The position numbers were made by a program, and so were the translations under genes. Positions 368 through 63,585 of a DNA stretch of 64,000 nt are shown here, in pieces; the stretch's first letter is position 1, and every line of letters starts with the position of its first letter. Origin of the DNA: a virus; the IMG/VR virus record IMGVR_UViG_3300001460_000018, positions 8,332-72,331 of that record; one strand, given 5' to 3'. The notes under the pieces are model-generated. The model worked only from the letters and a program-made list of their open reading frames with translations. It was not told where the DNA came from and made no database searches.

Positions 368-1096
368 ATGAAAAGTTATAAAAGTTTTGTTAATGAAGCA
401 AAGCATGTTAATGATAATTTTACAGATGCACAGATTAAATATGCACAAGATGTCATGATGAAGACAGGTTTATTACAAAATCCTAAACTTGAACTTAACA
501 TGGATGGAAGAAAGGAATTTCCTGTTTTAAAGTTTGATTTTACTGCTAAAGCTCTTAAAGATATTAAAGTATATGATGACGATAATGGATATTCATCATT
601 TACTGATGAAGATGATCCAAAAACTGCAAAGATTAGAAATATTATAAAGAAGGCAGGCGAATCAATATCTAAAAAAGGAAAAAAAGCTAAAGCATTTTTG
701 CCAGGATTTAGCGTAGGTGGTACTCCAACTGTTAGCGTAATATTACTAGGTGTTGATATTCCAATGAATGAATCAGTTAATGAATCTGATGTATCGGTAT
801 CTAAAGCATCTCAGGGTGTTGCTATAGATTTTAATGGTGAATCTGAAATGGTTTTTGATGAAGATGAGATTAGTACTTTAATTTCAGTACTATCAAATTT
901 TAATAAGACAGGTAAAGTTAAAAACACATCAATCCAAGATATTGATAGATATGACGCTAATATATCCAAAGCAGGTAATGGAATTGCAATAGAATATCCT
1001 ATACCATTTAGTGAAGATGATGAAACTGCTGATGTTATTTTAAGTAAAGGAAAGGATGTTGAAAAGTTTATAAATGACTTATTGAAAATAAAATAA
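368..1096 (+). CDS. Predicted capsid-internal protein with targeting peptide
   Basis: The 242-residue protein begins MKSYKSFVNE|AK. This aligns residue by residue with the T4 internal-protein targeting peptide as I recall it (MKTYQEFIAE), with Phe7 and Glu10 conserved. A second cluster, M-N-E-S-V-N-E-S-D at residues 133-141, would split the chain into two similar-sized products. Both halves are acidic and rich in beta-prone segments, with no recognised domain. By T4 precedent the peptide would direct the protein into the prohead core and be removed by the gp21-type protease. It lies in a run of similar genes with 10-25 bp spacers containing AAATAAAAA. Confidence 0.65.
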   Translation: MKSYKSFVNEAKHVNDNFTDAQIKYAQDVMMKTGLLQNPKLELNMDGRKEFPVLKFDFTAKALKDIKVYDDDNGYSSFTDEDDPKTAKIRNIIKKAGESISKKGKKAKAFLPGFSVGGTPTVSVILLGVDIPMNESVNESDVSVSKASQGVAIDFNGESEMVFDEDEISTLISVLSNFNKTGKVKNTSIQDIDRYDANISKAGNGIAIEYPIPFSEDDETADVILSKGKDVEKFINDLLKIK

Positions 1097-1108
1097 AAAA
1101 GATTTAAA

Positions 1109-2113
1109 ATGAAAAGTTATAAAAGGTTTATAAATAAAAGCAAGTCTGTTAATGAAATGTATGGACTTGACCAGGATATTGCAATGGAAATCATTAATGC
1201 AGCTGGTCAATATACAAGCGATGCAGATGAGGCAGCTAACCAAATGTGGGATAGCGCAGAGGAACTTATTAGTTACCTAAAATCTGACCATATTCCTAAA
1301 AAATATCATAAGGCATTTGATAAAGGCGTGGCAAGATTTGCTAACGAATCAGTTAATGAATCAGCTAAGTTAGTAGATGAAAAAACCGGAAAAGTTGTTA
1401 AATTACCTTATAAGACTAAAGACTTTAGAGGTGATGCTATTGTAGTTAAAGGTTTTTCTGAACCTCGTCATTCAGCATCAAGCGGTAGAATACAAACAGA
1501 TCAAGGGGAATTTTTTCCAGGCGTAGCAGGTCTTAAAATTGTAGGACATCAATTTGAATCTGTTAAAGAAGGAAATGCATTCAGTGCTGCTAGAGCTAAG
1601 GCAATTGCAAATGACGAAAAAACATTTAAAGTCGGTGATGAAGAATACGATGTTGAGGATGTTGATGCTGAAGATAAAGAAAATGCTGAAGAGTTTATTG
1701 GTGAAGCAGGCGATGTTAAGCTTATGAAAAGAAAACTTGACTCTATTGTAGGAAGTACTTTAACAAAGATAATCGATGAATTGGCTAAGAAAGGATTCTC
1801 AAAAGAAGAAATTGAGAAATACTTAGGAATTGTTGTTTCTGATAGAGTTGAAGAATCTTTTGGGAAGGTTAATGAATCTGATGTACCATCAGAGCTTGCT
1901 GATTATGCTGGGGAATTATCTGAAATTGAATTTGATGATTTTGATGAATCTACTGCGGCTCAATTAAAAAAATTATCTAAGAAAATGTCTTTTGTTATCG
2001 GAGATGAATCCATATCTGGAATGATGACAATGAAAGATGTAATTAAAATACTTAAATCAAATAATATAAAATTCGTTGAAGTTAATGGAGATGAATCTAT
2101 GATTGTATTTTAA
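1109..2113 (+). CDS. Predicted capsid-internal modular polyprotein
   Basis: The 334-residue protein starts MKSYKRFINK. Position 10 is Lys instead of Glu, but S-V-N-E follows at 13-16. Further candidate sites are A-N-E-S-V-N-E-S (78-85), F-I-G-E|A-G (196-201) and V-N-E|S-D (254-258), which divide it into about four segments. Segment 1 is helical, segment 2 is beta-rich, segment 3 is the 62-residue module shared with the gene at 1-354, and segment 4 is acidic. The arrangement suggests a precursor processed into several packaged polypeptides. Processing is inferred from site spacing and from the similar predicted site in the major capsid protein. No enzymatic domain was recognised. Confidence 0.65.
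   Translation: MKSYKRFINKSKSVNEMYGLDQDIAMEIINAAGQYTSDADEAANQMWDSAEELISYLKSDHIPKKYHKAFDKGVARFANESVNESAKLVDEKTGKVVKLPYKTKDFRGDAIVVKGFSEPRHSASSGRIQTDQGEFFPGVAGLKIVGHQFESVKEGNAFSAARAKAIANDEKTFKVGDEEYDVEDVDAEDKENAEEFIGEAGDVKLMKRKLDSIVGSTLTKIIDELAKKGFSKEEIEKYLGIVVSDRVEESFGKVNESDVPSELADYAGELSEIEFDDFDESTAAQLKKLSKKMSFVIGDESISGMMTMKDVIKILKSNNIKFVEVNGDESMIVF
1697..1882 (+). repeat. 186-bp coding module, copy 2
   Basis: Codons 197-258 of the 1109-2113 gene. Same length and nearly the same protein sequence as copy 1 at 130-315, again bounded by hydrophobic-x-Glu|small-residue sites. Confidence 0.85.
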
Positions 2114-2138
2114 ATCATCAAAAATAAAAACATTTAAA

Positions 2139-3122
2139 ATGAAGAGTTATAAAAGCTTTTTAAACGAAAGAAGAACTATTCAAGTTAAGAGAAAATATGG
2201 AAAGTATGCATCAACAGTAGTTGGTGCAAATGCTCCAGTTAGACAAAAAATTCTTGGATTTGTATCTGAGCAAGGATCTTGTTGTAAAACTGACTTAATG
2301 GAATACATTAAATCTGCTAATGAAGAGAGCGGTAGAAAAACTAGTCCTCAGTGGATTAAAAAGAATTCCAGATATTTAGTAACTTTTGAGAAAAATGGCG
2401 AAACTCATTATAAATTATCAAAACTTGGTAAAAGAGTAATTAATGCCACAAATATTAATGAATCAAATAATGATTATGTTGAGGAAATTGGAGATCTTGA
2501 AGAATTAATTTATGATCAAGGTGATATGAGAACTACTGCAAAGTGGGATGATGAATCTGAAGTACTTTTACAAGGTAATATAACCTGGGCAGAACTAGAT
2601 GTTACTGATTTAAGAAATGCAATTGATATGGCGAGAGATTTTATGAGAAAGCATAAGATCAAAGAATCATTAGTTGTTGAAAATGCTGCTCAGGCTGCTA
2701 AGGATTTTGCCGATCTTAGAGCGTTAATTAAAGATGATGCAGATGGTGAACATATTTACAGTATGATCATGAAAGATGATAGCAAAAAAATTCGCACTTT
2801 AACAAAAGATCTTAGAGCATTATATAATAAACTTTATAGATATATGAATATGTCTGAAGAGTCTGGAGTTAATGAAGGAAATACTATAGATTCACCGTAT
2901 CTTCAAAGACAACTTGAGTTTACTATTAAAGATATAGAAAAAGATGAGCCTGATGTTGCTAGCGTTTTAAATGATTTATCAAGTAGATTAGATCAGTCAT
3001 ATCCACAAGGCGATGTAGATATGAAAATAATTTCAAGTATCTTAAAAGAGCCTAATATTAAAAAGGACTACGCTAAAGTTAGTGGTGATGTTGATTTTTA
3101 TTTAAGCCAAGCTCTTAATTAG
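2139..3122 (+). CDS. Predicted capsid-internal polyprotein with winged-helix-like module
   Basis: I start this at 2139, where MKSYKSFLNE follows an A-rich leader, rather than at an in-frame ATG at 2103 that overlaps the previous gene. The protein is 327 residues. The targeting peptide would be cut after Glu10. Residues 34-105 look like a winged-helix fold: helices around 35-61 and 66-76, then a beta hairpin ending K-L-S-K-L-G-K-R-V. Sites I-N-E|S (106-109) and V-N-E|G (244-247) separate two further helical acidic segments. A DNA-binding protein carried in the virion is possible but unproven. A strong hairpin terminator follows. Confidence 0.65.
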   Translation: MKSYKSFLNERRTIQVKRKYGKYASTVVGANAPVRQKILGFVSEQGSCCKTDLMEYIKSANEESGRKTSPQWIKKNSRYLVTFEKNGETHYKLSKLGKRVINATNINESNNDYVEEIGDLEELIYDQGDMRTTAKWDDESEVLLQGNITWAELDVTDLRNAIDMARDFMRKHKIKESLVVENAAQAAKDFADLRALIKDDADGEHIYSMIMKDDSKKIRTLTKDLRALYNKLYRYMNMSEESGVNEGNTIDSPYLQRQLEFTIKDIEKDEPDVASVLNDLSSRLDQSYPQGDVDMKIISSILKEPNIKKDYAKVSGDVDFYLSQALN

Positions 3123-4685: not shown

Positions 4686-5351
4686 ATGAAAGATCTTGAT
4701 AATTTTTATTCCGTGAATATTAATGAATCTTTGGAAAATGCTAAAAAAACTATAGAAAAAAAGTTAGGAAAGTTTACCCAAGGATTTGAAATATACATAG
4801 ATGATAGTAATAAAAAAGATACTCTCATAATAAGTATAGATGAATTGGTTAAAGCTGGCGCTGAATACCCAGACATTCAAAAAGTCATTGATTCTGCTGT
4901 TAAGAAATATAGACTTAAGTTAGATAATTCATCTAATGATAGTGTTGTGTTTTTAACCGAAGGTGTATCAGATACACTAGATGAAGTTTCAGAAAAAATG
5001 GGAATGATGTTTACTATACTTAAAAGTAAATTAAGAGACGCTGCTAAACTACTTAAAAACTCTGATGATAGAGAAGAGTTTTATAAAATGGTTAAAGATT
5101 TTATTGAATCTAAAACTGGCATAGAAGTTATGGAAAATTTAGATTCTTTGCTTGAGAGAGCTGATTCTAAAGCACAGCGAAGGTTATTTGCTATTGCACT
5201 TCAATATAAGAGAGGCAATATAACAAAAGAAGAATTAGAACCTGAATATGCTGAAGAAATTATTAAAATTTCTGAGCTTCCTGAAAAAACGTTAAGAAAG
5301 TTTGCAAAGACTAAGGAAAAAGGACTTCCACATTATGTAGACAAAAAATAA
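4686..5351 (+). CDS. Predicted capsid-internal protein
   Basis: The 221-residue protein begins MKDLDNFYSVNINE|S, with the Glu of the candidate site at residue 14 instead of 10. A second site, F-L-T-E|G-V, at residues 89-94 splits it into an alpha/beta N-terminal part and a helical C-terminal part with many Lys and Arg. L-T-E|G fits the T4 gp21 preference well. Domain function is unrecognised. A hairpin shared with the oppositely oriented glycan gene cluster ends the transcript. Confidence 0.55.
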   Translation: MKDLDNFYSVNINESLENAKKTIEKKLGKFTQGFEIYIDDSNKKDTLIISIDELVKAGAEYPDIQKVIDSAVKKYRLKLDNSSNDSVVFLTEGVSDTLDEVSEKMGMMFTILKSKLRDAAKLLKNSDDREEFYKMVKDFIESKTGIEVMENLDSLLERADSKAQRRLFAIALQYKRGNITKEELEPEYAEEIIKISELPEKTLRKFAKTKEKGLPHYVDKK

Positions 5352-5352: not shown

Positions 5353-5383
5353 AAAAAGACTAGGATTATTTCTAGTCTTTTTT
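5353..5383. terminator. Bidirectional terminator between convergent genes
   Basis: AAAAAGACTAG, 8-nt loop, CTAGTCTTTTTT. It is symmetric, with T-runs on both strands. It lies between the plus gene ending at 5351 and the minus gene, whose stop codon is inside the right arm. Confidence 0.85.
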
Positions 5384-6106
5384 AGTTAATTTCTTAAGAG
5401 TCATCCAACCTCCAACACCCCACTTGTTTTGATATGTTTTTTCACCACCTGATGTAAGGTAGGCTTTTCTATCTTCATCTTCTTCGGTTTTTACAGTAAC
5501 TCCTAAATTACCATTATGATGAAATACTCTTGAGCCAATTATAAGAGTATGATAAAATAAATGTTCTTGTAAAGTTCTTGAATAATCATTATCACAATAC
5601 CAAAATTCAAAATCTTCATCAAGATCTCCTATATGTTCATATATTTCTCGCTTTTGGAATATACACCATCCCGTGATATGATTTGATACTGCCCAACCAT
5701 CTTCATATTCTTTACCAGATTCAATATATGATATATGATTTTTTTTATTTGGGTTACAGCATCCTGCACTCCATATATTTCTCTTTTTCATTACATCAAT
5801 TGCGATTGATGCCCAATTCTTATCAAATGTTAAATCATTATTACAAAGAACCACATATTCAGCATTTCCTGCTTTTCTACCAATATTTAAGTATCTATGA
5901 TAACCAAAAGGTAATTCAGTGTAAATAGTTTTTACATTATAATATGTATCATAATTAACATCTTTATTGCTCTCAACCACAAATACATTAAATTGTATAA
6001 TAAATGCATCTTCTGATTCATAAAGAGATTCAATACATCTCTGAGTTTCATTTAAAAGAGCTCCATCTTTTGCATTACTTATAATTACAATGTCTACTTC
6101 TTTCAT
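5372..6106 (-). CDS. GT2-type glycosyltransferase
   Basis: The 244-residue protein has the features of a GT-A family 2 enzyme: an N-terminal V-D-I-V-I-I strand, a C-N-N-D metal/nucleotide-sugar motif near residue 91, and a later W-Y-C-D-N-D-Y acidic acceptor-side motif. It is the last gene of a five-gene minus-strand operon and overlaps the upstream sulfotransferase-like gene by 4 bp. The acceptor is unknown: capsid or tail protein, host surface glycan, or hydroxymethylated DNA are all possible. T4 DNA glucosyltransferases have a different (GT-B) fold, so the DNA option is weaker. Confidence 0.75.
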   Translation of the reverse strand: MKEVDIVIISNAKDGALLNETQRCIESLYESEDAFIIQFNVFVVESNKDVNYDTYYNVKTIYTELPFGYHRYLNIGRKAGNAEYVVLCNNDLTFDKNWASIAIDVMKKRNIWSAGCCNPNKKNHISYIESGKEYEDGWAVSNHITGWCIFQKREIYEHIGDLDEDFEFWYCDNDYSRTLQEHLFYHTLIIGSRVFHHNGNLGVTVKTEEDEDRKAYLTSGGEKTYQNKWGVGGWMTLKKLTKKD

Positions 6107-6687
6107 TTAGTTGTTATTTTACTATGATCTATTATACTTTTATAAATGTTTAAGAATGATGTAAAGTCATGTTTATTATCAGATGCTAATTCACAAAATC
6201 TACTATAAACATTATATGCATATAAGCTATCGCTTGTAAATCTATCAAAGTCTATAAAATCTAAAGGTATGTCATTTGATGCACAATCTATTGCTATTTG
6301 ATAAACTACTTTAGCATTATGATTCATTTGGCTGTTTACATCACTTGCATTCCATAACCCGCCTGGACTTACTCCATGCTTTGCTCTAGATTTTGCTGTT
6401 ATTTCTAAATCTCTCATAGGTACAAATACTTTCTTAATTTTGTACTTCTTAGATAATTCAGGTATTCTATTATAAAATTGAGGTGCTTTACATATTAATG
6501 GATAATTTTCATTATCTGGATCTAAATAGATTTCAAGACCTCCTCTGCTATTTTGATTTATATACTGTTCTATTTCATCACTTGTTAGGTTTTGGTATCC
6601 TGTATCTAATCCTAGTAATGATAACAATTTTACAAGAATAGTTGTACCGCTTCTACCTGTACCGGTTATTAAAATCTTGTTTTTCAT
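6103..6687 (-). CDS. Sulfotransferase-like P-loop protein
   Basis: The N-terminus carries G-T-G-R-S-G-T-T (residues 9-16), the 5'-phosphosulfate-binding loop typical of sulfotransferases. A V-P-M-R-D-L segment about 90 residues later resembles the second PAPS-binding motif. The protein is 194 residues, short for the family but covering the core. It lies between two glycosyltransferases with a 4-bp overlap and a 2-bp gap, which suggests one pathway modifying a sugar. True sulfate transfer is inferred; related P-loop proteins may act on other donors. Confidence 0.6.
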   Translation of the reverse strand: MKNKILITGTGRSGTTILVKLLSLLGLDTGYQNLTSDEIEQYINQNSRGGLEIYLDPDNENYPLICKAPQFYNRIPELSKKYKIKKVFVPMRDLEITAKSRAKHGVSPGGLWNASDVNSQMNHNAKVVYQIAIDCASNDIPLDFIDFDRFTSDSLYAYNVYSRFCELASDNKHDFTSFLNIYKSIIDHSKITTK

Positions 6688-6689
6688 AA

Positions 6690-7244
6690 TTATCTTTTTT
6701 GTGCTTCAGTTGTATTTGAATTAAAATCATAGTGGTATAGGACTTTATCTATATTATATTCACTATAATTTTTTTTGGCCATATTTTCACCAAAGAGATT
6801 ATCTTCACCTACATTAATTTCTGGAAACAATTCAACAATACTCTTTTTCCATACCATTAAATGATTAGGTTGTCTTAAATACATTGTTGGTAAATTTACA
6901 TTTTCAGTGAACTCTTTTGAATAATGGCAAATCATAGGATTAGATTCGTTTATACTAACAGATGCTTGAAAATTAATGCAATCTGTACCATGTTGATTTA
7001 TTGCATCTAAAATATCACTAACATAATTAGGCTCAACCCGATCATCATCATCTACAAAACATATGTATTTACCAGTTGCAAGATATATTAAGTTATTTCT
7101 CTTTTCACCTACGCTCATTTGCCAATTATCACCAAGATATAAAATTTCAACTGGCTTACCTTTAGCCTGTTTTGTAAGTTCTTCTATTACTGAAAATTGT
7201 TTAAGTCTGTTAGGCAGTGAACATAATAATATGCTAAGTTCCAT
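6690..7244 (-). CDS. Small GT2-type glycosyltransferase
   Basis: The 184-residue protein begins with M-E-L-S-I-L-L and contains F-V-D-D-D-D-R-V around residue 64, the DxD region of GT-A enzymes. A V-G-E-D-N-L-F motif further on fits the catalytic ED pair of family 2. It is shorter than most members and lacks an acceptor-specific C-terminal domain. It is tightly packed with its neighbours (2-bp gaps). The substrate is unknown. Confidence 0.7.
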   Translation of the reverse strand: MELSILLCSLPNRLKQFSVIEELTKQAKGKPVEILYLGDNWQMSVGEKRNNLIYLATGKYICFVDDDDRVEPNYVSDILDAINQHGTDCINFQASVSINESNPMICHYSKEFTENVNLPTMYLRQPNHLMVWKKSIVELFPEINVGEDNLFGENMAKKNYSEYNIDKVLYHYDFNSNTTEAQKR

Positions 7245-7246
7245 TA

Positions 7247-7831: not shown

Positions 7832-7853
7832 TATATTTATTATATGGTATATT

Positions 7854-20979: not shown

Positions 20980-21555
20980 ATGAAGAGTTATAAAAGCTTT
21001 TTAAATGAAAATTACGACAAAGAAACTATCAAACAAATAAAGAAGTCTAAGAATTTTTCTAAGAAAGATAAGAAAGATATTATTACAATTTCAGAAATTT
21101 GGGGGTTAATTGATACTTGTCATGAAGAAGTACTTGCAAAAACAAGAAATGTTAAAGTACCAGAACACAAAAGGTTAATTGATGAAGCAGAAGATGATTT
21201 GAATGCAATTAGAATTTCATTGAATGATTTCTTGGCTGATAAAGAAGAATTACTTGATGAAGCAAAGCATGTTAATGAAGCAGATATATCTGGAAGCAAA
21301 ATTAGCATGCTTGGAACTAAAATCTTCAATAAAATAAAGATTGGTTCTAAGTTTAACACAGACACTAATGTTTATACTGTTAAAGACTTTGGTAGAGCAT
21401 CAAATGCATTTAAAGAATATATCGTAACTGATAAAAATGGTAAAGATATTGGTGCTAAGCTTAGCGCTATGTACAGTACTACCTTTGCTCTTTCTGATGA
21501 TCCAAGAAGTTTAGTATTTAGAAAAGAAGAAATGCTTAATTCTATAACCATATAA
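20980..21555 (+). CDS. Predicted capsid-internal protein, two segments
   Basis: The 191-residue protein begins MKSYKSFLNE|N, identical in its first ten residues to the protein at 2139. Residues 11-97 are helical and charged. A second site, H-V-N-E|A-D (97-102), lies in E-A-K-H-V-N-E, a phrase also found after the targeting peptide of the protein at 368. The C-terminal part is beta-rich with a V-x-D-F-G-R segment. Function is unknown; packaging and processing are inferred. Confidence 0.65.
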   Translation: MKSYKSFLNENYDKETIKQIKKSKNFSKKDKKDIITISEIWGLIDTCHEEVLAKTRNVKVPEHKRLIDEAEDDLNAIRISLNDFLADKEELLDEAKHVNEADISGSKISMLGTKIFNKIKIGSKFNTDTNVYTVKDFGRASNAFKEYIVTDKNGKDIGAKLSAMYSTTFALSDDPRSLVFRKEEMLNSITI

Positions 21556-21573: not shown

Positions 21574-22161
21574 ATGAAAGGATATAGAGAGTTCTTAAAT
21601 GAATCAAAAGAATCATATAATGATAAGGGTTTTTGGAATGGTGTTAGCAAGGAATTAGCTAAACAGCTTAAACCATATAAAGTAAAATTAGCTAAATTTA
21701 GAGTTGATAAGTATTCAAGAACAATTACATATGAATTCAAACAACGTGCAAACTCATTTATTTTAGAGATAGCGCATGATTGGGGTAGAGATGGCAGTGA
21801 AGGTAAACCTGATACAACATTTACAGTTAATGTATCTGATGGAGAAACTTTTACTGAGGATTTAGGTAGATTTGCAATATGGGATGAGCTTAATTATGTA
21901 GCTGAGGATATTATTAATGTAATGAAATCTATGGAAGGTGAGGAACTTGCTCAATGGATATTTGAATCTGTAGTTAATGAATCATGTGATGTACATAGCT
22001 CTTATGATGAAGACTGTGATGATTGTGTTGCAGGTGAAACTAATGAAAAAGAGTTTAAACCCCATATGATGTATGATACTGAAACAGGAAAAGCATATAA
22101 AGCAGAAAAACCTGAAGATCATGAGAGAATGTCTAAGTTAGGATATACTCATAAAAAATAG
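21574..22161 (+). CDS. Predicted capsid-internal protein
   Basis: The 195-residue protein starts MKGYREFLNE|S, a close variant of the targeting peptide. A second site, V-V-N-E|S-C at 133-138, releases a roughly 59-residue tail containing C-x8-C-x2-C and His residues that could bind a metal. The tail also has the phrase M-Y-D-T-E-T-G-K-A-Y-K-A, seen in small metal-binding or transcription-associated proteins. A terminator follows the gene. Confidence 0.65.
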   Translation: MKGYREFLNESKESYNDKGFWNGVSKELAKQLKPYKVKLAKFRVDKYSRTITYEFKQRANSFILEIAHDWGRDGSEGKPDTTFTVNVSDGETFTEDLGRFAIWDELNYVAEDIINVMKSMEGEELAQWIFESVVNESCDVHSSYDEDCDDCVAGETNEKEFKPHMMYDTETGKAYKAEKPEDHERMSKLGYTHKK

Positions 22162-22189: not shown

Positions 22190-22217
22190 ACGGGTGGCAT
22201 TTGCTGCCCGTTTTTTT
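22190..22217 (+). terminator. Intrinsic terminator
   Basis: ACGGGTGGC, short loop, GCTGCCCGT (two G-T pairs), then seven T. It ends the internal-protein run and separates it from the gp55 gene. Confidence 0.85.
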
Positions 22218-22268
22218 AAACATTTCTCCAAGTTATTTGATTTAATAATTATACCAAATACTCTAAAA

Positions 22269-23099
22269 ATGGCAAGAACAAGAAATTATGTAAACAATGT
22301 AGATCTTTTAGAAGAACTGTATTTGTCTATAGAACAAGAAAGCTTAACACGTAAAGGATTAGACATGTTAATGAAGCTTGCCCAAAGAACACAAAGAAAA
22401 TTATATTACTCTTGCGATGATGATAAACAGCATTGCTTATCTGAAGCATACTTTGATTTAATTAAAAGATGGACAAAATTTAATCCTTATTCTGTAAGAT
22501 CTTTTGGCTTTGAATTAATTGACTATAAAGGAAGTGGTGGAAAAATAGAATTATCAAGTGAATCAAGAGACATGAAATTTTATAAAGACCCTAGCAACAG
22601 AGAGTCAATTTTAAAATGTGAAACAGTTTCAGGAGTTGAAATAGGAATACGAAAAGATAAAAAAATTAGTTATTTAAAGATTACAGACTTAAATATTGAT
22701 TGGACAGTAGCACGAGAAGGTTTCATTAAAGCTAACCCACACTTATTTAAAAAACCTGGATATAGGCTACCACCTGAAATGCCAACAGTTTCTGAACTAT
22801 TACTAAAAACATTTTCAAATAATCAAACAGGTATTTTTGATCCTTTAAAAACAAGAGTTAGAGTAAAGTATAAAATACTTGGATTGCCTAAAGATGATAT
22901 TAAATATTCTGAGTGTTGGGTTTATAAAACTAATGCAGTAGTAAAAGACCCTAATCCATTTTCATACTTTACATCAATATGTATCAATGGATATGCAAAA
23001 GGATTTAAAGAACTTCGACCTAAAAAAGATAAGGGTAAGTTTATTTCACTAGATGCAGGATTTAATAATGATGATGGGACTGACTTATTTAATACATAA
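22269..23099 (+). CDS. 55: Late sigma factor, T4 gp55-like, with large insertion
   Basis: I start at ATG 22269; an upstream in-frame GTG at 22194 lies within the terminator. The 276-residue protein opens with R-N-Y-V-N-N-x-D-L and a helix ending D-L-I-K-R-W-T-K-F-N-P, then resumes at N-P-F-S-Y-F-T-S-I. Both match the gp55 core of T4-like phages, where these two blocks are nearly adjacent. Here about 150 residues of mixed composition lie between them. The short acidic tail ending D-L-F-N-T may bind the sliding clamp, as the T4 tail does. It would direct host RNA polymerase to late promoters. Confidence 0.7.
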   Translation: MARTRNYVNNVDLLEELYLSIEQESLTRKGLDMLMKLAQRTQRKLYYSCDDDKQHCLSEAYFDLIKRWTKFNPYSVRSFGFELIDYKGSGGKIELSSESRDMKFYKDPSNRESILKCETVSGVEIGIRKDKKISYLKITDLNIDWTVAREGFIKANPHLFKKPGYRLPPEMPTVSELLLKTFSNNQTGIFDPLKTRVRVKYKILGLPKDDIKYSECWVYKTNAVVKDPNPFSYFTSICINGYAKGFKELRPKKDKGKFISLDAGFNNDDGTDLFNT

Positions 23100-24196: not shown

Positions 24197-25843
24197 ATGG
24201 CAAGTATATATAAAAGCTTAAAAACAATAAAAACTGGAGGGAGTACATTTAACTCACCTTCACTAAGAAATCTTGCAGGGAAAGGATTTGATTATAAGGA
24301 TTCTGTTATACTAAACTCTGAGGCTATTGGTAGTTTAGAAAATGAATTAGGATGGCAACAAAACAATTCACTTCTTCGATACGGCCAAGATAATGTTGAC
24401 TTAAATGATCTTTATAATTTTGCAGCTGCAGATGTTTATAGCAAAAAGAACATTCCATTTTTTGACCAGGAATATCCTGCTAAAAGAGATCAGTTAAGAA
24501 AATATAGTTTACAAGATGAAATTGAACAAATTTTAGATATTCTTGTAGATGAACTAATTGTGTATGACACAAAGAAATACTTTGCTAATATTAAATGGGA
24601 AGAAGATCTTAATATAAAAAAATCAGAAAGAAAACGAATTAATGAAACGCTATCTTCTAATTTTAGAAAGATGTATAGAATGTTCGGCTTTAAGAATGAA
24701 AATACTGCATGGCATTATGGTAAAAAATATGCAGTAGATGGTTACCTATCATTTGAAATTATTTGGGATAGATCTAATAAGAATATTATTGGATTTAAAG
24801 AACTTGATCCAATTTCACTAACACCTAAAGTGTTTAAAGATGGTACAAGAGGTTGGATCCAATATGATAATGATCCTATTAAAGCTAGAGAACTTAATGA
24901 TTCCCAGGTTATTTTATTATCATATTCTGCAATTAATAGCGAAGGTAGAATTTCATATGCTGAAAGGCTTGTAAGATCATTTAATCTTTTAAGAATCATG
25001 GAACAGTCAAGAATTATTTGGTCTGTTGTAAATTCTTCATATAAAACTAAATTTATTATACCTGTAGCAGGTAAATCTAAAAACATTGCAAAGCAAACAG
25101 TATCTAACTTAATGCAAGCATATAGAGAAAACATTAATTTTGATACAGATAGCGGTGAATTAGAAGTTAATGGTAAACCAATGTTACCGTTCAATAAAGA
25201 ATATTGGGTTCCTGAAGGTGATAGTGGAACTCCACAGATTGAAACCATTGGCGGTGAAGGTCCTGATTTATCAGACACAGGTCAATTAGAATACTTTAGA
25301 GATAAATTAATATCAGTTTCTAAATTACCTAAAAACCGATTTATTAAAGATGAATCTCCTACATGGGAATCTTCACCTGAAGGATATACCAGAGAAGAAA
25401 TATATTTTGAGCGGTTTTTAAGTAGAATACGAGCACAATTTCAAGAAATTTTAGTCAAGCCTACTATATTACAAACTAAAGTAGATATTATAGAACTTAA
25501 AGATGACCCAAGCTTTGATGCTGATGTTTATTTAGATTGGTCTAAATATGATGTATTTGAAGAAATTAAAGAAATGGAAATGTTTAAAGCAAGAATTGAT
25601 GTTATATCATCTGCTAAAGATTCATTAGTTGACTTTGATGAAGAAGGTAATGAAGTTAGATACTTCTCTAATGAATACCTTGTTAAAAAGTATTTAAAAA
25701 TGACAGAAGATGAAATCCGCCTTAATGAGCAATTAAAGACTAAAGAAGATGAAGAAATAAATACAAATAATAAAGAAGGTGACGAAGGTGAAGATAGCGA
25801 AAAAGATAGTAAACCTGATACAGATTTGGATTTAGGCTTCTAA
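24197..25843 (+). CDS. 20: Portal vertex protein, T4 gp20-like
   Basis: This 548-residue protein is close to T4 gp20 (524). Diagnostic segments include Y-P-A-K-R-D-Q-L-R-K-Y and Q-D-E-I-E-Q-I-L-D-I-L-V-D-E, followed by F-G-F-K-x-x-x-T-A-W-H. Later segments are G-E-G-P-D-L-S-D-T-G-Q-L-E-Y-F and L-P-K-N-R-F. It forms the dodecameric DNA entry ring. The C-terminus is an acidic tail. Protease-scaffold and capsid genes follow in the T4 order. Confidence 0.9.
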   Translation: MASIYKSLKTIKTGGSTFNSPSLRNLAGKGFDYKDSVILNSEAIGSLENELGWQQNNSLLRYGQDNVDLNDLYNFAAADVYSKKNIPFFDQEYPAKRDQLRKYSLQDEIEQILDILVDELIVYDTKKYFANIKWEEDLNIKKSERKRINETLSSNFRKMYRMFGFKNENTAWHYGKKYAVDGYLSFEIIWDRSNKNIIGFKELDPISLTPKVFKDGTRGWIQYDNDPIKARELNDSQVILLSYSAINSEGRISYAERLVRSFNLLRIMEQSRIIWSVVNSSYKTKFIIPVAGKSKNIAKQTVSNLMQAYRENINFDTDSGELEVNGKPMLPFNKEYWVPEGDSGTPQIETIGGEGPDLSDTGQLEYFRDKLISVSKLPKNRFIKDESPTWESSPEGYTREEIYFERFLSRIRAQFQEILVKPTILQTKVDIIELKDDPSFDADVYLDWSKYDVFEEIKEMEMFKARIDVISSAKDSLVDFDEEGNEVRYFSNEYLVKKYLKMTEDEIRLNEQLKTKEDEEINTNNKEGDEGEDSEKDSKPDTDLDLGF

Positions 25844-25903: not shown

Positions 25904-27538
25904 ATGAAAGAATTATTATTAGTAGAAAAATCATCAACCAGTATTGGGAAAACATCTGATCCTTATACACTTGAGGGTATGTTTACTGAGTTAGGTGAAG
26001 AAAATAGAAATGGTCGAATTTATACTAAGGATGGTTTTTTACCTCACTTAACACAATTACAAAAGGTAGTTGAGCAAGGTAAAGCTGTAGGTGAATTAGA
26101 TCACCCTAAGGTTTTTGAAACAAGCTTAAAAAATTCTTCTCATGTTATAGAGAAAATTTGGTTTGATGAAAAAGATAATAAAGTATACGGTAGAATAAAG
26201 TTACTTGATACAGATGCAGGAAAAAATGCAAAGGCATTAGTTGATGCAGGAGTACCTCTTCATATATCATCAAGAGCTGCAGGTACAGTAACTGAAGATA
26301 AGTCTGTAAAGATTCATAAATTATTTACATATGATTTAGTTGCAGACCCTGGATTTGAAAATGCAGTATTAAATACAGTTAACGAATCTTATGGTATTGA
26401 AAATGCAAAATCTTCAAACTTTTTTATGTATGAAGTTGCAGAATCTAAATTATCTAAGAAGCCTGTAATAGATAACCAGAAGTTTATATCTGAAGATGAT
26501 CTTAACGGATTTACAAAATACACTAAAGAAACTATTGATTCTCTTAAAGAAAACCTTGATAAATTACAGAAAGCACAAAATGCAATTATTAAGCAAAATG
26601 ATGAAATTGCTGATAATATCAATAGTAATGTATTACAGGAATCTATAAATTTAATTAATGATAAGATTAAAGGTATTGAGGATTGGTCTAATCATGTAGT
26701 TGAAGAGTTCACTACAATTAAATCAGAATCTGATAGAATTAAAGTTCTTGAAGATAAACTAACAGGAATCGAAAATTGGTCTGAGCATGTTACTGAAACT
26801 GTATCAGGAATCGAAAATTGGTCTGAGCATGTTACTGAAACTGTATCAGGAATCGAAGATTGGTCTGAACATGTTACTGAAACTGTTACTGCAATCGAAG
26901 ATTGGTCCGATGAAGCAACTACTACAGTATCAGGAATCGAAAATTGGTCTGAGCATGTTACTGAAACTGTATCAGGAATCGAAGATTGGTCTGAACATGT
27001 TACTGAAACTGTTACTGGGATTGAGAAGTGGTCTGATGAAGCAACTGATGTTGTAACAAAATTAGAAGAAGGCGCACTTACAGAAAATCCAATAAAACGT
27101 AAAAAGAAAGTTGATGTTTCTTTATCTGAAACATATATAACTGGATTATATAAAAAAATTGATTCTATTATCGATGATGCTAAGAAGCAAAAAGCTGAAG
27201 AGAAACAAGAATTAGTAAAAGAGGAAAATGAGTTTAATAAAACTGAGGAACCTTTCTGGAAATCAATGATGCCAGGAAAATACACAGAATTATGGGAAGC
27301 ATTATCTGAATCTAAAAAATCATCAATTGTTAAAAGAGCTACAATTTGTGAATTTCTAACTGAAAGTTCTGTTACAGAATTTTGGAATGCAACATTTGCT
27401 AACACTACAATTGAAATGATTAAAGAATCTTCAAAGATGCCAGTGCAAAAAACTGCTGAGGAAGTAGAAAATGCAATAGCAGCTAGAAGACTAAGAATTG
27501 TTGAAGGCTATAATAAAAACTTCAAAACAAATCATTAA
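25904..27538 (+). CDS. 21: Prohead protease-scaffold fusion (gp21 + gp22-like)
   Basis: The 544-residue protein starts with a gp21-type serine protease (about 1-155): G-E-L-D-H-P gives His67 and I-S-S-R-A-A-G gives Ser122/123, followed by V-A-D-P-G-F. V-N-E|S-Y at 159-162 looks like a self-cleavage site. A coiled-coil region, seven 14-residue repeats (288-385), A-L-T-E|N-P and a charged helical C-terminus then follow. In T4 the protease (212 residues) and the scaffold gp22 are separate adjacent genes; here they are fused. The C-terminal part would form the prohead core and then be digested. It lies between portal and capsid genes. Confidence 0.8.
   Translation: MKELLLVEKSSTSIGKTSDPYTLEGMFTELGEENRNGRIYTKDGFLPHLTQLQKVVEQGKAVGELDHPKVFETSLKNSSHVIEKIWFDEKDNKVYGRIKLLDTDAGKNAKALVDAGVPLHISSRAAGTVTEDKSVKIHKLFTYDLVADPGFENAVLNTVNESYGIENAKSSNFFMYEVAESKLSKKPVIDNQKFISEDDLNGFTKYTKETIDSLKENLDKLQKAQNAIIKQNDEIADNINSNVLQESINLINDKIKGIEDWSNHVVEEFTTIKSESDRIKVLEDKLTGIENWSEHVTETVSGIENWSEHVTETVSGIEDWSEHVTETVTAIEDWSDEATTTVSGIENWSEHVTETVSGIEDWSEHVTETVTGIEKWSDEATDVVTKLEEGALTENPIKRKKKVDVSLSETYITGLYKKIDSIIDDAKKQKAEEKQELVKEENEFNKTEEPFWKSMMPGKYTELWEALSESKKSSIVKRATICEFLTESSVTEFWNATFANTTIEMIKESSKMPVQKTAEEVENAIAARRLRIVEGYNKNFKTNH
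26765..27058 (+). repeat. Seven tandem 42-bp repeats in the scaffold region
   Basis: Units start at 26765, 26807, 26849, 26891, 26933, 26975 and 27017. Each encodes a 14-residue unit of the form G-I-E-(N/D)-W-S-(E/D)-H-V-T-E-T-V-S. Several units are nearly identical at the DNA level, which suggests recent expansion. A divergent unit precedes the array. Confidence 0.9.
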
Positions 27539-27555: not shown

Positions 27556-29241
27556 ATGTTAAACGAGTCAAAATTGATGCAAACTTGGAAGCCAGTTGTA
27601 GAATCAACTGTTGGAGAAGTACCTGCACACAAACTTGGATGGATGTCTAAAGCATTGCAAATCCAAGAGAACTACGAAGCTCAGAGAGCTAGCAGTTCAT
27701 TAAATGAAAATAACTTTTTCGCACATAAAGCATCTGTAAATGGTATGGGTGCTGTATCATTACCTGAAAATCCTGGTAATGGATGGAGTACTGGTGATAC
27801 AGGTTCAGGTGATGTTCCTTATTCATTACTTCCATTAGCAATTCAAGTTGCTGCACAAACTATTGGATTGGAATTAGTACCTGTTATCCCAATGAACGGT
27901 CCTGTTGGAATGCTTTCTTACATGGATTTTGTTTATGCTGGTGGTAAAGCTGGTTATGTTCCACAAAATTCACTATATCCTGCAGGAACTGCTGGAGATG
28001 GTAAAAATTCTCCAATTTTCATTAAAGCTAAACTTGATGTTTATACAGGTGTAGCTGCTAACACTGCATATACTATTCCTGCTGGAACAGGTACAGGTAC
28101 TTTATCTGTTACATTCTTAGGTCAGTCTAGAATTGATGGATTTGCAATTTTCAAATTGCCAGAAGTATTGGTTGATTCAGCTGGTGTAAATTACTCAGTT
28201 GCTGATGCTATTCCTGCTAACACTGCTGTTGGTGGAACTGCAATTGCTGTTACTGGTGCAAGTGCTACAACAAAGATTATTTCTAAAGCAGAATTAGTAA
28301 AAGGTGTAGAAGATCATATTCAAGGATTCTCAAGTAACCGATATGATTCAACTGATGCAATGTCAAGATTAGAAGGAGAAACTACTCCAGATAATACAAT
28401 GAACATTACATTATTCAGTAAATCTGTTGAGGCTAAAACTGTTCAAGCTGCTGCAGCTGTAACAAGAGAGCAAGTTCAGGATTTAAAGCAGTTTGGTATT
28501 GATGCTGTTGCTCAAGTAAACCAAATCTTAGCAAATGAATTAACTCAAAACGTGAATAAGGATATCTTAGGAAACATTTTTGACCTAGGTAAAATTAATC
28601 ACGCTAACATCACTGCAACATCTGGTGTATCACTTCACTTAGTATTAGGTGCTACTGCTGCAACATTAACTGTAGGTACAGAAGCTCAGGTTTCAACTCC
28701 ATCATTTATGTATTTTGGCGCAGGTACTTCAGTTACTCAAGTTGATGCAGTTAACACAGGTGCTGAAAACCTTTCAACTAGACAGAGAAGATTGATGTCA
28801 AGAATTCTTGCTGCATCAAATATGGTTTCTGTTAGAGGAAGAAGAGGACCTGCTACGTTTGCAGTATGTTCTGCTCAAACTGCTTCAGGTTTACAAGACT
28901 GTGCTGGATTTATTGCTGCACCAATCGCTAATACAATAAACCAAGTTGCTGGCGCACTTTACCCAATTGGTAATCTTGCTGGTCTTGCTATCTATGTTGA
29001 TCCTAACATGGAATGGGGAGATACAAGAATTGCTATTGGTAGAAAAGGTGATGGTCAAACTCCTGGTTTAGTATTCATGCCTTATATTATGGCTGATACT
29101 GTTGAGACAATTGCTGAAGGTACTATGGCTCCAAAAATTGCTATCAAATCTAGATATGCATTAGTTAGAGCAGGTCACCACCCAGAAACAATGTACTTAA
29201 CATTCGGAGTTTCCGATTTAGTTGATGGATACTGGGCATAA
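27556..29241 (+). CDS. 23: Major capsid protein, T4 gp23-like
   Basis: The 561-residue protein begins near W-K-P-V-V-E, like T4 gp23 (W-K-P-L-L-E). It has S-L-N-E|N-N-F at residues 48-54, corresponding to the T4 maturation cut after Glu65. HK97-fold landmarks follow, including P-M-N-G-P-V-G and A-A-A-V-T-R-E-Q-x-Q-D-L. Others are R-A-G-H-H-P-E and a C-terminal Y-L-T-F-G-V-S. It ends before a hairpin terminator. The predicted L-N-E site matches the sites in the internal proteins, supporting one protease specificity. Confidence 0.92.
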   Translation: MLNESKLMQTWKPVVESTVGEVPAHKLGWMSKALQIQENYEAQRASSSLNENNFFAHKASVNGMGAVSLPENPGNGWSTGDTGSGDVPYSLLPLAIQVAAQTIGLELVPVIPMNGPVGMLSYMDFVYAGGKAGYVPQNSLYPAGTAGDGKNSPIFIKAKLDVYTGVAANTAYTIPAGTGTGTLSVTFLGQSRIDGFAIFKLPEVLVDSAGVNYSVADAIPANTAVGGTAIAVTGASATTKIISKAELVKGVEDHIQGFSSNRYDSTDAMSRLEGETTPDNTMNITLFSKSVEAKTVQAAAAVTREQVQDLKQFGIDAVAQVNQILANELTQNVNKDILGNIFDLGKINHANITATSGVSLHLVLGATAATLTVGTEAQVSTPSFMYFGAGTSVTQVDAVNTGAENLSTRQRRLMSRILAASNMVSVRGRRGPATFAVCSAQTASGLQDCAGFIAAPIANTINQVAGALYPIGNLAGLAIYVDPNMEWGDTRIAIGRKGDGQTPGLVFMPYIMADTVETIAEGTMAPKIAIKSRYALVRAGHHPETMYLTFGVSDLVDGYWA

Positions 29242-57813: not shown

Positions 57814-58803
57814 ATGAAAAGTTTAAAGTATTTCATAAATGAATTAGTTTCATATAATATGCCAATGCAAATTATAATGAGAGGTAACATAGGACTTACC
57901 TCAAAAGAAGAAGACTTTACAAAGAAAGCAATGAAACGCCTTTATGAAAAATACATTAGGCTAGTTCTTATTAAAAAAGAAAGCAATTATAATACTGATG
58001 ATGATGTTCCAGAAAATAGGAAAAATAAAATATCATATGAATATCCTATTTTAAATTTTACATCTACTCCTAATGACTTTATTGAATCTGATGATGCTGT
58101 TATCTTTAACAAAATAGATGATTATGCAATAAGCGCAGATAAGAAAGTATTTTCAAAAGAGCTTGGTGATACTTGTGAATGTATTCCTAAAACCGTATAT
58201 TCATTAGATGATATTGAAGATCTTACATTACCTATTATTGCTAAACCTGCTGAAGGATTTAGCGCACAGGGGATTGAAAAATTTGATTCATATGAAGATG
58301 CTAAAAAATCTGATTTAGAATTTGATATTTGGTGCGAAGCTAAAGATCTTGATAGAGAATTTAGAGCATTTATCATGAATGGCAAAATTCTTTTAATTGC
58401 TGAGAGAATAACAAATACACAAAATGATAAATCAGTTGGTGAAAAAGACGCTGAAGAAAAAATAGATTTAATTTATATTGACCAAGATATGGATAAATTT
58501 CCATACATGGATAAAATAAAAAAGATTCAAAAGCAATTAGAAACCAAAGTTAAATTAGATTTTTATAATATTGACCTAATGCTTGATAATGATGGTGAGT
58601 TATGGGTTCCTGAAATTAATGGAGCTCCAGGGATAGGCCCATCACATTTTAAAGTTCTATATGAAGCATGGCTAAAAATGGCATATAATGCAAAAATGTC
58701 AAATGATGTTAATAAAGAACTTACAGATATACAAAATAAGCATAGGAAAGATATGAAAAACGAATATCCTAAAGAATATAAGTCATCATTATCACCTTTA
58801 TAA
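57814..58803 (+). CDS. ATP-grasp ligase-like protein with capsid-targeting N-terminus
   Basis: The 329-residue protein begins MKSLKYFINE|L, matching the targeting peptide with Glu10. The body is RimK/glutathione-synthetase-like: P-I-I-A-K-P-A-E-G-F-S-A-Q-G-I (ATP-lid region), W-C-E-A-K-D-L-D-R-E-F-R-A-F, and D-L-M-L-D-N-D-G-E-L-W-V-P-E-I-N-G-A-P-G with metal-binding Asp, Glu and Asn. ATP-grasp enzymes join a carboxylate to an amine. If packaged, it would be an enzyme delivered with the DNA. The target is unknown. Confidence 0.7.
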   Translation: MKSLKYFINELVSYNMPMQIIMRGNIGLTSKEEDFTKKAMKRLYEKYIRLVLIKKESNYNTDDDVPENRKNKISYEYPILNFTSTPNDFIESDDAVIFNKIDDYAISADKKVFSKELGDTCECIPKTVYSLDDIEDLTLPIIAKPAEGFSAQGIEKFDSYEDAKKSDLEFDIWCEAKDLDREFRAFIMNGKILLIAERITNTQNDKSVGEKDAEEKIDLIYIDQDMDKFPYMDKIKKIQKQLETKVKLDFYNIDLMLDNDGELWVPEINGAPGIGPSHFKVLYEAWLKMAYNAKMSNDVNKELTDIQNKHRKDMKNEYPKEYKSSLSPL

Positions 58804-58814: not shown

Positions 58815-58961
58815 ATGGAAAGCAATCACTGGAAAGGCAGATACATATCATCATGTAATGGAAACTATATATTACAACCAAACGGTAATGTAATAATTTG
58901 TGATGATACTTATGTATATGACGAATTTAAAGAACCTGTTAATAATATAGAAAATGATTAA
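58815..58961 (+). CDS. Short 48-residue protein, unknown
   Basis: A 48-codon frame fits exactly between the ATP-grasp gene (12-bp gap) and the GcvH-like gene (8-bp overlap, ATGATTAA). The predicted product has a compact beta-like pattern (W-K-G-R-Y-I, N-Y-I-L-Q-P-N-G-N-V-I-I-C-D-D). Gene packing supports translation; there is no function call. Confidence 0.45.
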   Translation: MESNHWKGRYISSCNGNYILQPNGNVIICDDTYVYDEFKEPVNNIEND

Positions 58962-59325
58962 AGAAGATTTATTATACACTGAAGACCATGAATGGATTCA
59001 GATAGAAGATGGTGTGGCTATTATAGGAATTACCTATTTTGCTCAAGATCAGTTAGGAGATATCGTTTATGTTGAAATAGAAAATGAGGCAGCAGTTTCT
59101 GGTGAAGTAATGGGATCAATAGAGGCAGTTAAAACAGTAAGTGATATATATGCTCCTATAACTGGAAATATTATAGAAATAAATGATAGCCTAGAAGATA
59201 TGCCTGACCAAGTAAACAATGATCCTTACGGTACAGGGTGGTTAGCAAAGATAAGTATAGATGATGAAAGCGAAATAGGCTCTTTACTTACAGCTTCTCA
59301 ATATAAAGAATTGGTAGGATCATAA
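58954..59325 (+). CDS. gcvH: Glycine cleavage H-protein-like lipoyl carrier
   Basis: The 123-residue protein matches GcvH over its full length: Y-T-E-D-H-E-W-I, G-I-T-Y-F-A-Q-D-Q-L-G-D-I-V-Y-V-E, E-A-V-K-T-V-S-D-I-Y-A-P (lipoyl Lys60), L-E-D-M-P-x-x-V-N-x-D-P-Y-G-x-G-W-L-A-K-I. All key positions for lipoylation are present. GcvH shuttles aminomethyl groups in glycine cleavage, yielding methylene-tetrahydrofolate, the cofactor of gp42. No GcvP, GcvT or lipoate ligase was found here, so it must use host partners or have another role. Confidence 0.88.
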   Translation: MIKEDLLYTEDHEWIQIEDGVAIIGITYFAQDQLGDIVYVEIENEAAVSGEVMGSIEAVKTVSDIYAPITGNIIEINDSLEDMPDQVNNDPYGTGWLAKISIDDESEIGSLLTASQYKELVGS

Positions 59326-61266: not shown

Positions 61267-61653
61267 ATGAAGAGTTATAAACAAATAATGAATGAAAAAG
61301 CTGAAGGTCATATATCTAGAAAGATTAAGTTTGATATTGATATAGAGTCAACATCACATGCAATTAAAAGACTAAATAGAAAAGATGAGCAAGGAAATTC
61401 TTCATATGAACCTGTTACATTTAAAGAAGTTAATTCTATCATAAGCAAGGCAACTGAAATACTCATAAGAGATTTAGTTAATGACACTACAGATATTAAC
61501 AAAGATAGGGTTATTTTGCAAAGAGAAGGCGATGGACTAACAGTTGTAGGAATAATGGAAAAGAAAGGAAATGAACTATCATTTGTTGTTATTACTTTAT
61601 ATAGAGGAGCTGAATTTAGAGTAGGTCGAAATCAAAAAATCATTAAAGTATGA
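61267..61653 (+). CDS. Predicted capsid-internal protein with DUF4258/RelE-like core
   Basis: The 128-residue protein begins MKSYKQIMNE|K, keeping Lys2, Tyr4, Asn9 and Glu10. Residues 26-40 contain S-H-A-I-K-R-L-N-R-K, a His-Ala-x-x-Arg motif seen in DUF4258 and some RelE/barnase-fold toxins. A beta-sheet pattern ends I-T-L-Y-R-G-A-E-F-R-V-G. A small toxin-fold protein packaged in the head would fit a host-takeover role. Both packaging and fold are inferred. Confidence 0.55.
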   Translation: MKSYKQIMNEKAEGHISRKIKFDIDIESTSHAIKRLNRKDEQGNSSYEPVTFKEVNSIISKATEILIRDLVNDTTDINKDRVILQREGDGLTVVGIMEKKGNELSFVVITLYRGAEFRVGRNQKIIKV

Positions 61654-62503: not shown

Positions 62504-62543
62504 AATAGCCGAAACTATACACGGTCCTAAAAACGTATTTCGT

Positions 62544-63266
62544 TTATTCTAATAATTCTTTTGCTCTCTGTGTAAATACAATAACATCATTTACTTTATA
62601 TCCCATTTCTCTGGTAATATCTTCAAGATTCTGATAACCTTTTTCAAGATTTTTTGGCCAATCACCCTTTCCTTTCATCTTTTCTCTATTTGATTTAATT
62701 GAGTGATTAGATGAAGGCTGTTCAAATGAATACTCTCCATATTTAGAAAGATCTAAGGTTTTCATATGATCATCAACAGATTTCTTATATGAAACATATT
62801 CCTTTTCAAGAGTGCTTAATAATTTATTAAATTCTGGGCTATCAACTTTAGTTCTCTTACCCCAATAATTAGTAACTCCGTGCCAGTTATCATCATCTAT
62901 TGCTCCTTTAAGAGATTTTAATTCTGACAATGCTTGGTCATATCTAAACTCTGTTCTATTAATCTTAGGAAGATACTTCGTTAATATCTTTTTAATAAAA
63001 TCATCAAGCAATTCCTCAAGAGCATTTTCAATCTGATCAGGATGGTTATATTTACCTATTCCTTTACTAGAAAGAGCACGCGGAAAATCACCATCATTAT
63101 AATATCTATAATATTGTCTAAATATTGAATCTTTCTTATTCTTTTCACCTTTTCCTAAAATGTCTTTATCATATAGCCATGACATAAGTCCATCTATTTG
63201 ATTAATCTTTCCAGACCAGGCTCTTCCTTTTTTAGCCTCGTTTATAAATTCATTTAAATCTCTCAT
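62544..63266 (-). CDS. Predicted capsid-internal protein
   Basis: The 240-residue protein starts MRDLNEFINE|AK, aligned with the targeting peptide. The rest is charged, Lys-rich and helical, with a W-x-G-K-I segment after the cleavage site and two Trp-containing loops. No domain was recognised. It is one of three consecutive minus-strand genes with N-E-F-type motifs. Confidence 0.6.
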   Translation of the reverse strand: MRDLNEFINEAKKGRAWSGKINQIDGLMSWLYDKDILGKGEKNKKDSIFRQYYRYYNDGDFPRALSSKGIGKYNHPDQIENALEELLDDFIKKILTKYLPKINRTEFRYDQALSELKSLKGAIDDDNWHGVTNYWGKRTKVDSPEFNKLLSTLEKEYVSYKKSVDDHMKTLDLSKYGEYSFEQPSSNHSIKSNREKMKGKGDWPKNLEKGYQNLEDITREMGYKVNDVIVFTQRAKELLE

Positions 63267-63303
63267 ATTATTTCTTTTCTTTTGTTTTATTTTTTTCTAG
63301 GAG

Positions 63304-63585
63304 TTATTTATTCCAGTTTTCAGACTCGTTTAAAAATTCATTTAAAACTTTTTGGCGGACTATATGGTTTCCTAAAATAAATTCTATGTTATCATCAATA
63401 TCCTCTCTGGTATTAATGTCACCGCTGTCATATATATCTTCCAGTTCTCTTTTTAAGTTATTGAATTGTGTTTTAGTTTTTATAATATTTTTTGGTAATT
63501 GTTGTATAATTTCTATAACAGCAGCATTAAATGTTTTTCTATCCATCTTACTTGCTTCGTTTAAAAATTCGTTTAAGTTTTTCAT
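63304..63585 (-). CDS. Small predicted internal protein with two targeting-like motifs
   Basis: The 93-residue protein begins MKNLNEFLNE|AS and ends with a second near-copy, V-L-N-E-F-L-N-E|S (80-88), six residues from the C-terminus. Trimming at both would leave a helical core of about 77 residues. The C-terminal copy may be a second sorting signal or the start of a lost fusion partner. Confidence 0.6.
   Translation of the reverse strand: MKNLNEFLNEASKMDRKTFNAAVIEIIQQLPKNIIKTKTQFNNLKRELEDIYDSGDINTREDIDDNIEFILGNHIVRQKVLNEFLNESENWNK

Follow-up and report, generated by a model that had tools for sequence, protein, structure and literature searches.

The window analysed here is a 64,000-nucleotide stretch of viral DNA (bases 8332-72331 of a 76,225-base IMG/VR virus contig, 29% G+C) that encodes nine proteins beginning with one ten-residue motif, M-(K/R)-x-(Y/L)-x-x-(F/I)-(L/V/I/M)-N-(E/K). 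From the sequences, we consider it likely that the peptide is a capsid-targeting signal like that on T4 internal proteins, carried by cargo of the phage head, a minority of which would be cassette polyproteins. More tentative, and a little short of an even bet, is a broader proposal in which, across this group of T4-like phages, the head maturation protease acts as a polyprotein protease: chains of site-bounded cassettes would be imported by a single tag and cut in the prohead, and the site junctions would double as the borders at which tagged proteins, protease-scaffold proteins and phages exchange cassettes, so that the injected proteins would form a combinatorial repertoire.

A shared ten-residue start and its longer forms in relatives

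A sequence-only reading of the window had listed these nine proteins, and all nine indeed match the motif at the first ATG of their open frame, with a TTG present further upstream of the matching ATG at 2139. On the plus strand, the putative cargo genes (arrows mark the candidate cut) are 368..1096 (tag MKSYKSFVNE↓A; internal sites MNE↓S at 135 and VNE↓S at 139), 1109..2113, which encodes a mosaic protein (MKSYKRFINK; sites after residues 80, 84, 154 (VKE↓G), 199 and 256), 2139..3122 (MKSYKSFLNE↓R; sites after residues 108, 181 and 246), 20980..21555 (MKSYKSFLNE↓N; internal site VNE↓A at 100), 21574..22161 (MKGYREFLNE↓S; internal site VNE↓S at 136), 57814..58803, whose product has an ATP-grasp (R2K-type) domain (MKSLKYFINE↓L), and 61267..61653 (MKSYKQIMNE↓K). 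The minus strand carries 62544..63266 (MRDLNEFINE↓A) and 63304..63585 (MKNLNEFLNE↓A); both genes are real, and the positions 62544 and 63304, initially given as their starts, are their ends, the true starts being 63266 and 63585. A weak candidate for a long-tag cargo protein, MKDLDNFYSVNINE↓S, is encoded at 4686..5351 (+) and contains a DUF3008 segment that starts separate proteins in relatives. The window does not contain all tagged genes: just upstream of it, for example, is one for a GNAT acetyltransferase-like protein (L002:7372-8034, MKRLKKFINQ).

The motif was run across a larger contig of the same phage (G001; 171,834 bases, 99.997% identity across 75,213 bases), where its strict form starts 12 of 207 genes, vs 0.003 expected from composition. 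Among 952 internal Met positions in G001 a single one matched, and it makes a better start codon for the gene in which it lies, G001:150108. The nine-mer without its Met was found once in 54,089 residues of protein bodies, as the tag-like KVLNEFLNE↓S near the C-terminus of the 63304 protein. For two relatives the sequence examined amounted to 220 of 254 kb and 400 of 462 kb, and the exact ten-mer form was present in 0 of 295 and 0 of 544 of their genes.

The T4 peptide taken as the model for this motif, M-K-T-Y-Q-E-F-I-A-E, agrees with the T4 record: IPIII, as read from AF158101, begins MKTYQEFIAEA. The portions of PMC9026906 cited here describe the first 10 residues of IPIII as sufficient, with positions 4 and 7 directing targeting and positions 8 and 10 processing; they also describe gp21 as cutting after L/I-X-E, and T4 Alt as an ejected ADP-ribosyltransferase. 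Nineteen tags of this phage, a set that comes from a loose pattern and still includes the 3214 and 59329 genes rejected below, have L, Y or I at position 4, F at position 7 in 17, a hydrophobic residue at position 8 in all, E at position 10 in 16, and S or A at position 11 in 11. Glu10 is present in eight of the nine listed proteins, and 1109 has Lys10 with a V-N-E at residues 14-16. The positions conserved here (4, 7, 8 and 10) are the functional positions of T4 IPIII.

Two genes put forward earlier as weaker matches were not retained. The product of 3214 has 14 homologues in other phages that align along most of the chain, and because these homologues, mostly aligned from their first residues, start without the site, we do not regard it as tagged; 61650 has Ser at position 10. 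Also rejected were 59329, which was not in the earlier list, fits the loose motif and carries a GIY-YIG domain, and 52696, where the start is a GTG inside a gene. As a separate observation, in L234:10252-12123 (+) a homologue of 3214, ligase-like by eye, is joined via LNE↓A to a part that looks nucleotidyltransferase-like by eye.

Relatives were examined in a wider protein set (also used for the border statistics and site densities), drawn from loci selected for encoding a relative of the capsid protein or of one of the cassettes B-D described below, plus G001, G003 and LR756500; the phage's own loci were left out of the core-motif count. The core [YFLI]xxF[LIVM][NS]E begins at or before residue 9 in 96 of 1261 non-redundant proteins of relatives, from 41 loci, vs 1.1 expected. 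It begins at residue 7 in 72 of these 96, which defines a 13-residue form, MK-x-(I/L)-x-x-(F/Y)-x-x-F-(L/I/V)-N-E. Nine of 18 whole records contain this 13-mer (13, 10, 10, 10, 9, 7, 6, 1 and 1 copies), and the reversed pattern is found in none of the 18. Two of the nine, LR756500 (L123, a named 462-kb record) and G005/L189 (IMGVR 3300025030_000039, 429 kb), are the same phage, since they are identical across the 21,611 bases compared. PAU has a 14-residue tag form in seven genes, and other forms occur in LR756500 as well; two of the seven tagged PAU proteins, gp142 and gp154, were labelled internal capsid protein by the depositors.

The ten-mer itself is present once in the named record LR745206, six times in LR756501 and five times in MA9V-2; the scan gave no match in LR756500, LR756502, LR756504, Lak-B5, PAU, PTm1 or T4, and Lak-B5 and PTm1 had none of the three tag forms searched. 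An exact ten-mer scan of IMG/VR returned at least 119 stretches with many different bodies, some of them chance matches in very short frames. We also observed in G003 (L263:13186-17603, +) a near-continuous run of nine tagged genes, all separate representatives at 60% identity.

Candidate protease sites and exchangeable cassettes

The head genes of the phage are T4-like. They comprise a portal protein (24197..25843, +; PHROG 213), a head maturation protease fused to scaffold (25904..27538, +; PHROG 207, E-value (E) 1e-41, residues 18-520), a major capsid protein (27556..29241, +; PHROG 138, with a better match to PHROG 28442, whose function is unassigned) and a DNA end protector (PHROG 429). 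The gp21/gp22-like protease-scaffold protein is the candidate processing enzyme. Among named phage records, the major capsid protein is nearest to those of uncultured huge phages (LR756500, 47.6%), Prevotella Lak phages, PAU, and Tenacibaculum and Chryseobacterium phages. Its predicted cut is LNE51↓N (27706-27708). Glu41 is invariant in an alignment of 78 capsid proteins, of which 73 have Leu39 (L-x-E), and the five rows without Leu39 (four phages, that of the window counted once) have an inserted L-N-E nearby. The mature capsid protein of PAU is given in the cited part of PMC5646251 as 520 of 585 residues, by N-terminal sequencing; a cut at LME64↓N, which aligns with LNE51↓N, would give 521 residues, one off this value. 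The conserved IPIII positions, the gp21/gp22-like gene and a capsid site of the same form thus support the earlier suggestion that the shared start is a T4-type sorting signal.

With [LIVM]NE[SAG] held fixed, P7 is aromatic in 74 of 97 N-terminal vs 23 of 243 internal sites, and P4 in 76 of 97 vs 27 of 243. Because these aromatics are mostly N-terminal, the N-terminal sites hold an extra recognition part that is absent internally, as the T4 work would predict. The strict site reaches 6.3 per 1000 residues in 13 protease-scaffold proteins vs 0.6 elsewhere; its density in tagged proteins is 1.3 per 1000.

The bodies had been described as unrelated, which holds for only part of the cargo. Some proteins share cassettes: 1109 and the gene just upstream of 368 have in common a 182-bp segment that is 87% identical. 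We distinguished three cassettes in 1109, namely B (residues 85-153; 1361..1567, +), also present in other proteins of other phages, C (residues 155-199; 1571..1705, +), also present inside protease-scaffold proteins, and D (residues 200-256), encoded by the duplicated DNA at 1702..1883 (+), whose second copy (135..316, +) lies in a gene that starts upstream of the window and ends at 354. The duplicated stretch begins one base ahead of the Glu199 codon and ends one base past the second codon that follows Glu256. Cassettes B and C, jointly or apart, are found in 70 loci, that of 1109 included, and C was confirmed in 211 viral stretches. In 80 fetched stretches with cassette C, PhiXE directly precedes it in 61 of 62 distinct contexts, with a variable P2; protease-scaffold proteins account for nine of the 62. 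A search of bacterial genomes for cassette C gave 251 pattern matches, none confirmed, a search of viral_contigs for cassette D found this phage only, and 50,697 named phage records yielded no homologue of B, of C or of the 462-residue mosaic L292 protein, with one chance-level match (E 4).

The first part of 2139 (residues 11-108; 2169..2462, +) is a winged-helix-like cassette, in which a predicted winged helix follows a disordered linker; the 10-residue mean predicted local distance difference test score (pLDDT) is 81 to 93 over residues 31 to 100. Its homologues stand behind a tag-like start in four proteins and behind a bare N-terminal LNE in a fifth, and in two further types of protein the preceding site is internal (VNE↓A or VTE↓S). 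Likewise, residues 302-400 of G001:153516, located behind an internal VNE↓S, are 91% identical to L166:12184-12900 around and after its tag end. In these alignments one and the same cassette can be bordered by an N-terminal or by an internal site, the two being interchangeable.

Left cassette borders coincide with gp21-type sites (PhiXE, then S/A/G/N). This was measured on stretches of local similarity shared by proteins that are otherwise unrelated (merged at 60% identity), after dropping overall homologues and high-scoring segment pairs of <25 or >250 columns; loci with cassettes B and C are over-represented in the set. At left borders the number of sites peaks at 89 in the central nine-residue bin, vs 17 to 38 in the others; the right-border peak is less sharp than the left, the D and K motifs show no peak, and the reversed motif rises slightly at left borders (38 vs 22 to 31). 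A site lies within six residues in both partners at 20 of 82 left borders (shifted null mean 3.0, maximum 9 in 300) and at 27 of 140 right borders (null mean about 5.2-5.5, maximum 11); for the strict motif the counts are 7 at left (null 0.6) and 12 at right (null 0.7). The control motifs D, K and reversed gave 0, 4 and 5 at left borders (null means 1.1, 2.0 and 2.7) and 1, 6 and 22 at right borders (null means 2.0, 3.7 and 3.6). Because the reversed motif is equally enriched at right borders only, we take the left-border result as specific and the right one as not, and the rise of this control slightly lowers our confidence in a polyprotein design. True double sites can contain N-E-S-V, a match to the reversed motif, and this could be a cause of the rise.

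Putative cargo, proposed mechanism and alternatives

A Pfam scan at E 1e-4 covered 81 tagged proteins (two of them from this phage) and 92 more. The sets of tagged open reading frames exclude frames of <65 or <75 residues, frames running off a contig end, near-duplicate sequences and one family, MK(M/R)YIPFLNEC; from those gathered around relatives of the capsid protein and cassettes the phage's own loci were dropped, set A3 still holding two own proteins via L092. The lists of families found number 18 and 17, several overlapping on one protein, so the large majority of tagged proteins are without a Pfam match. Single members match ADP-ribosyltransferase, zeta toxin (kinase-type), sulfotransferase, 2'-5' RNA ligase/LigT phosphoesterase, ankyrin repeats, leucine-rich repeats, RimK-type ATP-grasp, PNK3P and, weakly, NleE-type methyltransferase, and three tagged proteins match a cytidylyltransferase-like (nucleotidyltransferase-like) fold. 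In other phages, the tagged bodies of L020:2088-4379 (-) and L090:6360-6974 (-) begin with the nucleotidyltransferase-like GRFNPPTIGH or GRMNPPTVGH; by eye, these are possibly a packaged enzyme of the nicotinamide adenine dinucleotide (NAD) pathway, and two of that set match the cytidylyltransferase-like family. The idea of a diverse putative cargo that includes enzymes and DNA-binding folds is supported by the ATP-grasp domain, the GNAT domain (in a gene outside the window) and the predicted winged helix, and is not supported for 3214 and 61650. A sequence search of the PDB gave no match for the ATP-grasp or the GNAT protein. Enzymes of the families matched would be more in keeping with delivery for take-over or counter-defence than with a role as scaffold.

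The tag would operate during prohead assembly, when the aromatic or hydrophobic residues at P7 and P4 (ten-mer positions 4 and 7) would bind each protein to the scaffold core. Cleavage by a gp21-like protease after PhiXE, where the tag ends, would follow, and the body would stay in the head and be ejected with the DNA, with a possible role in host take-over or counter-defence. In the minority cargo, the same kind of site stands again inside the chain at the borders of exchangeable cassettes; one tag would bring in several proteins and the protease would separate them.

Several observations weigh against this scheme. T4 internal proteins are described as basic, a trait that is not needed for targeting, and six of the nine proteins here have an isoelectric point of 5.5 or less. 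The DNA form of the ten-mer matches a reversed control once per contig of this phage (forward 8 and 12) and three times in two relatives. In protease-scaffold proteins the reversed motif (3.3 vs 0.2 per 1000) and Asn-Glu (15.5 vs 5.7) are raised along with the strict site, so the site richness of these proteins is partly a matter of composition; the D and K control motifs are not raised. In the wider set, a strict internal site occurs in no more than 12 of the 75 tagged proteins, the enrichment is 2.2-fold (p 0.006), and the broad motif shows none, its density equalling background; for these reasons we regard the polyprotein design as a minority feature. The 76-kb contig gives 10 sites in 2968 residues vs 16 in 19,522, for a set chosen post hoc. 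The fold prediction for 1109 is poor (mean pLDDT 57) and unusable for folds, with the cut at 199 inside a predicted helix, and the winged-helix match of 2139 falls short of E 0.001, its best PDB matches being mostly winged-helix proteins at E 0.002 and above. Finally, the Glu-Gly-Asn start of cassette C could be kept for other reasons, and the presence of this cassette in scaffold proteins also fits core material meant for destruction.

This last point leads to an explanation that we judge unlikely, in which the mosaic proteins belong to the prohead core, as T4 gp22, gp67 and gp68 do: they would bear the tag or parts that bind the core, help set head size and be cut up at many sites, and the pieces would leave with no delivery. 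Cassette C does lie within protease-scaffold proteins, which have the highest site density, and the cited part of PMC9026906 describes T4 gp22 and gp67 as cut into fragments, most of which are removed; however, other tagged proteins match enzyme families, 63 of 75 lack a strict internal site, and the cassettes are conserved small units in many different hosts. The same 63 proteins, together with the background density of the broad motif and the enrichment of the reversed control at right borders, would suit another account, to which we give slightly more weight while still doubting it: internal PhiXE would be ordinary uncut linker residues, only the N-terminal tag would be processed, and exchange would be domain shuffling at flexible linkers. 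Against this stand the left-border sites, about 7-fold over shifted controls where the D, K and reversed motifs are not, and the interchangeability of N-terminal and internal sites as borders of the same cassette.

The shared start could also be a nucleotide element, a promoter or translation start, rather than a peptide signal, and an A-rich sequence just before the ATG is common to some tagged genes. We find this very improbable because varied synonymous codons code for the peptide; moreover, an exact T4-type late promoter octamer stands upstream of none of the 18 tagged vs 6 of 189 other genes, and with at most one mismatch allowed the figures are 11 of 18 vs 89 of 189. A link between late promoters and tagged genes was also considered, and was not clear enough to be used.

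If the peptide is a capsid-targeting tag, a signal this short and readable would pick out, from sequence alone, those of the many unknown genes of large T4-like phages that are carried in the virion. Their products would probably be injected before phage gene expression, where early counter-defence or take-over proteins are expected. If the head protease releases the cassettes, this would amount to a polyprotein system inside the virion of tailed phages, with the tag as a possible device for loading several proteins at once.

Other features of the window include a T4-type late sigma factor-like protein (22194..23099, +; weak match, E 1e-4) and, near the tagged ATP-grasp gene, a phage-encoded glycine cleavage H-protein (58954-59325, +; Pfam GCV_H, E 6.6e-39). 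A family B DNA polymerase is split over two open reading frames (9094-10563 and 11355-12572, +) that cover Pfam profile positions 23-143 and then 144-452, with the gene 10597-11355 between them. A type II topoisomerase is in three pieces on the plus strand: a gyrase B part (49597-51384), a Toprim part (51385-51864) and a subunit A part (53333-54673). A minus-strand cluster (5372-8360) has a methyltransferase and a weak glycosyltransferase match. An Rfam scan of the window gave no match.

Comparison with known systems

T-even phages are known to have internal proteins that combine a conserved tag with variable bodies; the cited portion of PMC3012670 describes in these phages a diverse set of defence proteins with only the targeting sequence in common. 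The breadth of the present family, its longer tags and the cassette design look new, and our searches of open-licence PMC literature turned up no description of such a tag family, of its 13- and 14-residue forms, or of a prohead protease that cuts cassette polyproteins. The likeness to T4 IPI, IPII, IPIII and Alt lies in the ten-residue N-terminal peptide, its key positions, the gp21-type protease and the variable bodies. The differences are the Asn-Glu at positions 9-10 where IPIII has Ala-Glu, the 13- and 14-residue forms in relatives, the many more genes, the multi-cassette nature of some cargo, and the bodies encoded in the window, most of which are acidic.

In phiKZ and SPN3US, inner-head and ejection proteins are similarly cut by the prohead protease after a short Glu-ending motif, and their propeptides are thought to target; these propeptides are, however, mostly long (several >100 residues), and the part of PMC5694885 cited here does not describe a short family-wide tag. 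The DarB protein of P1 also has an N-terminal signal, of which 30 residues suffice, that sends the protein into the head; P1 is another type of phage, and no family of many proteins with one short tag is described in the cited part of PMC9024508.

The polyvalent proteins of phages and conjugative elements are alike in having several domains per chain and in being thought packaged and delivered, and the portion of PMC5512222 cited here likens them to viral polyproteins. The trait of several domains in one chain is present here, since B and C, both part of 1109, each turn up elsewhere on their own. Release of polyvalent proteins is ascribed in that source to embedded peptidase domains, whereas the left borders described here carry sites of the head-protease type, and a Pfam scan of 10 window and 9 relative proteins found no peptidase domain. 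The T4 core proteins gp22, gp67 and gp68 share with the mosaic proteins the presence of multiple sites of the gp21 type per chain; the T4 proteins are cut up and mostly lost, whereas here recognisable cassettes recur across different proteins.

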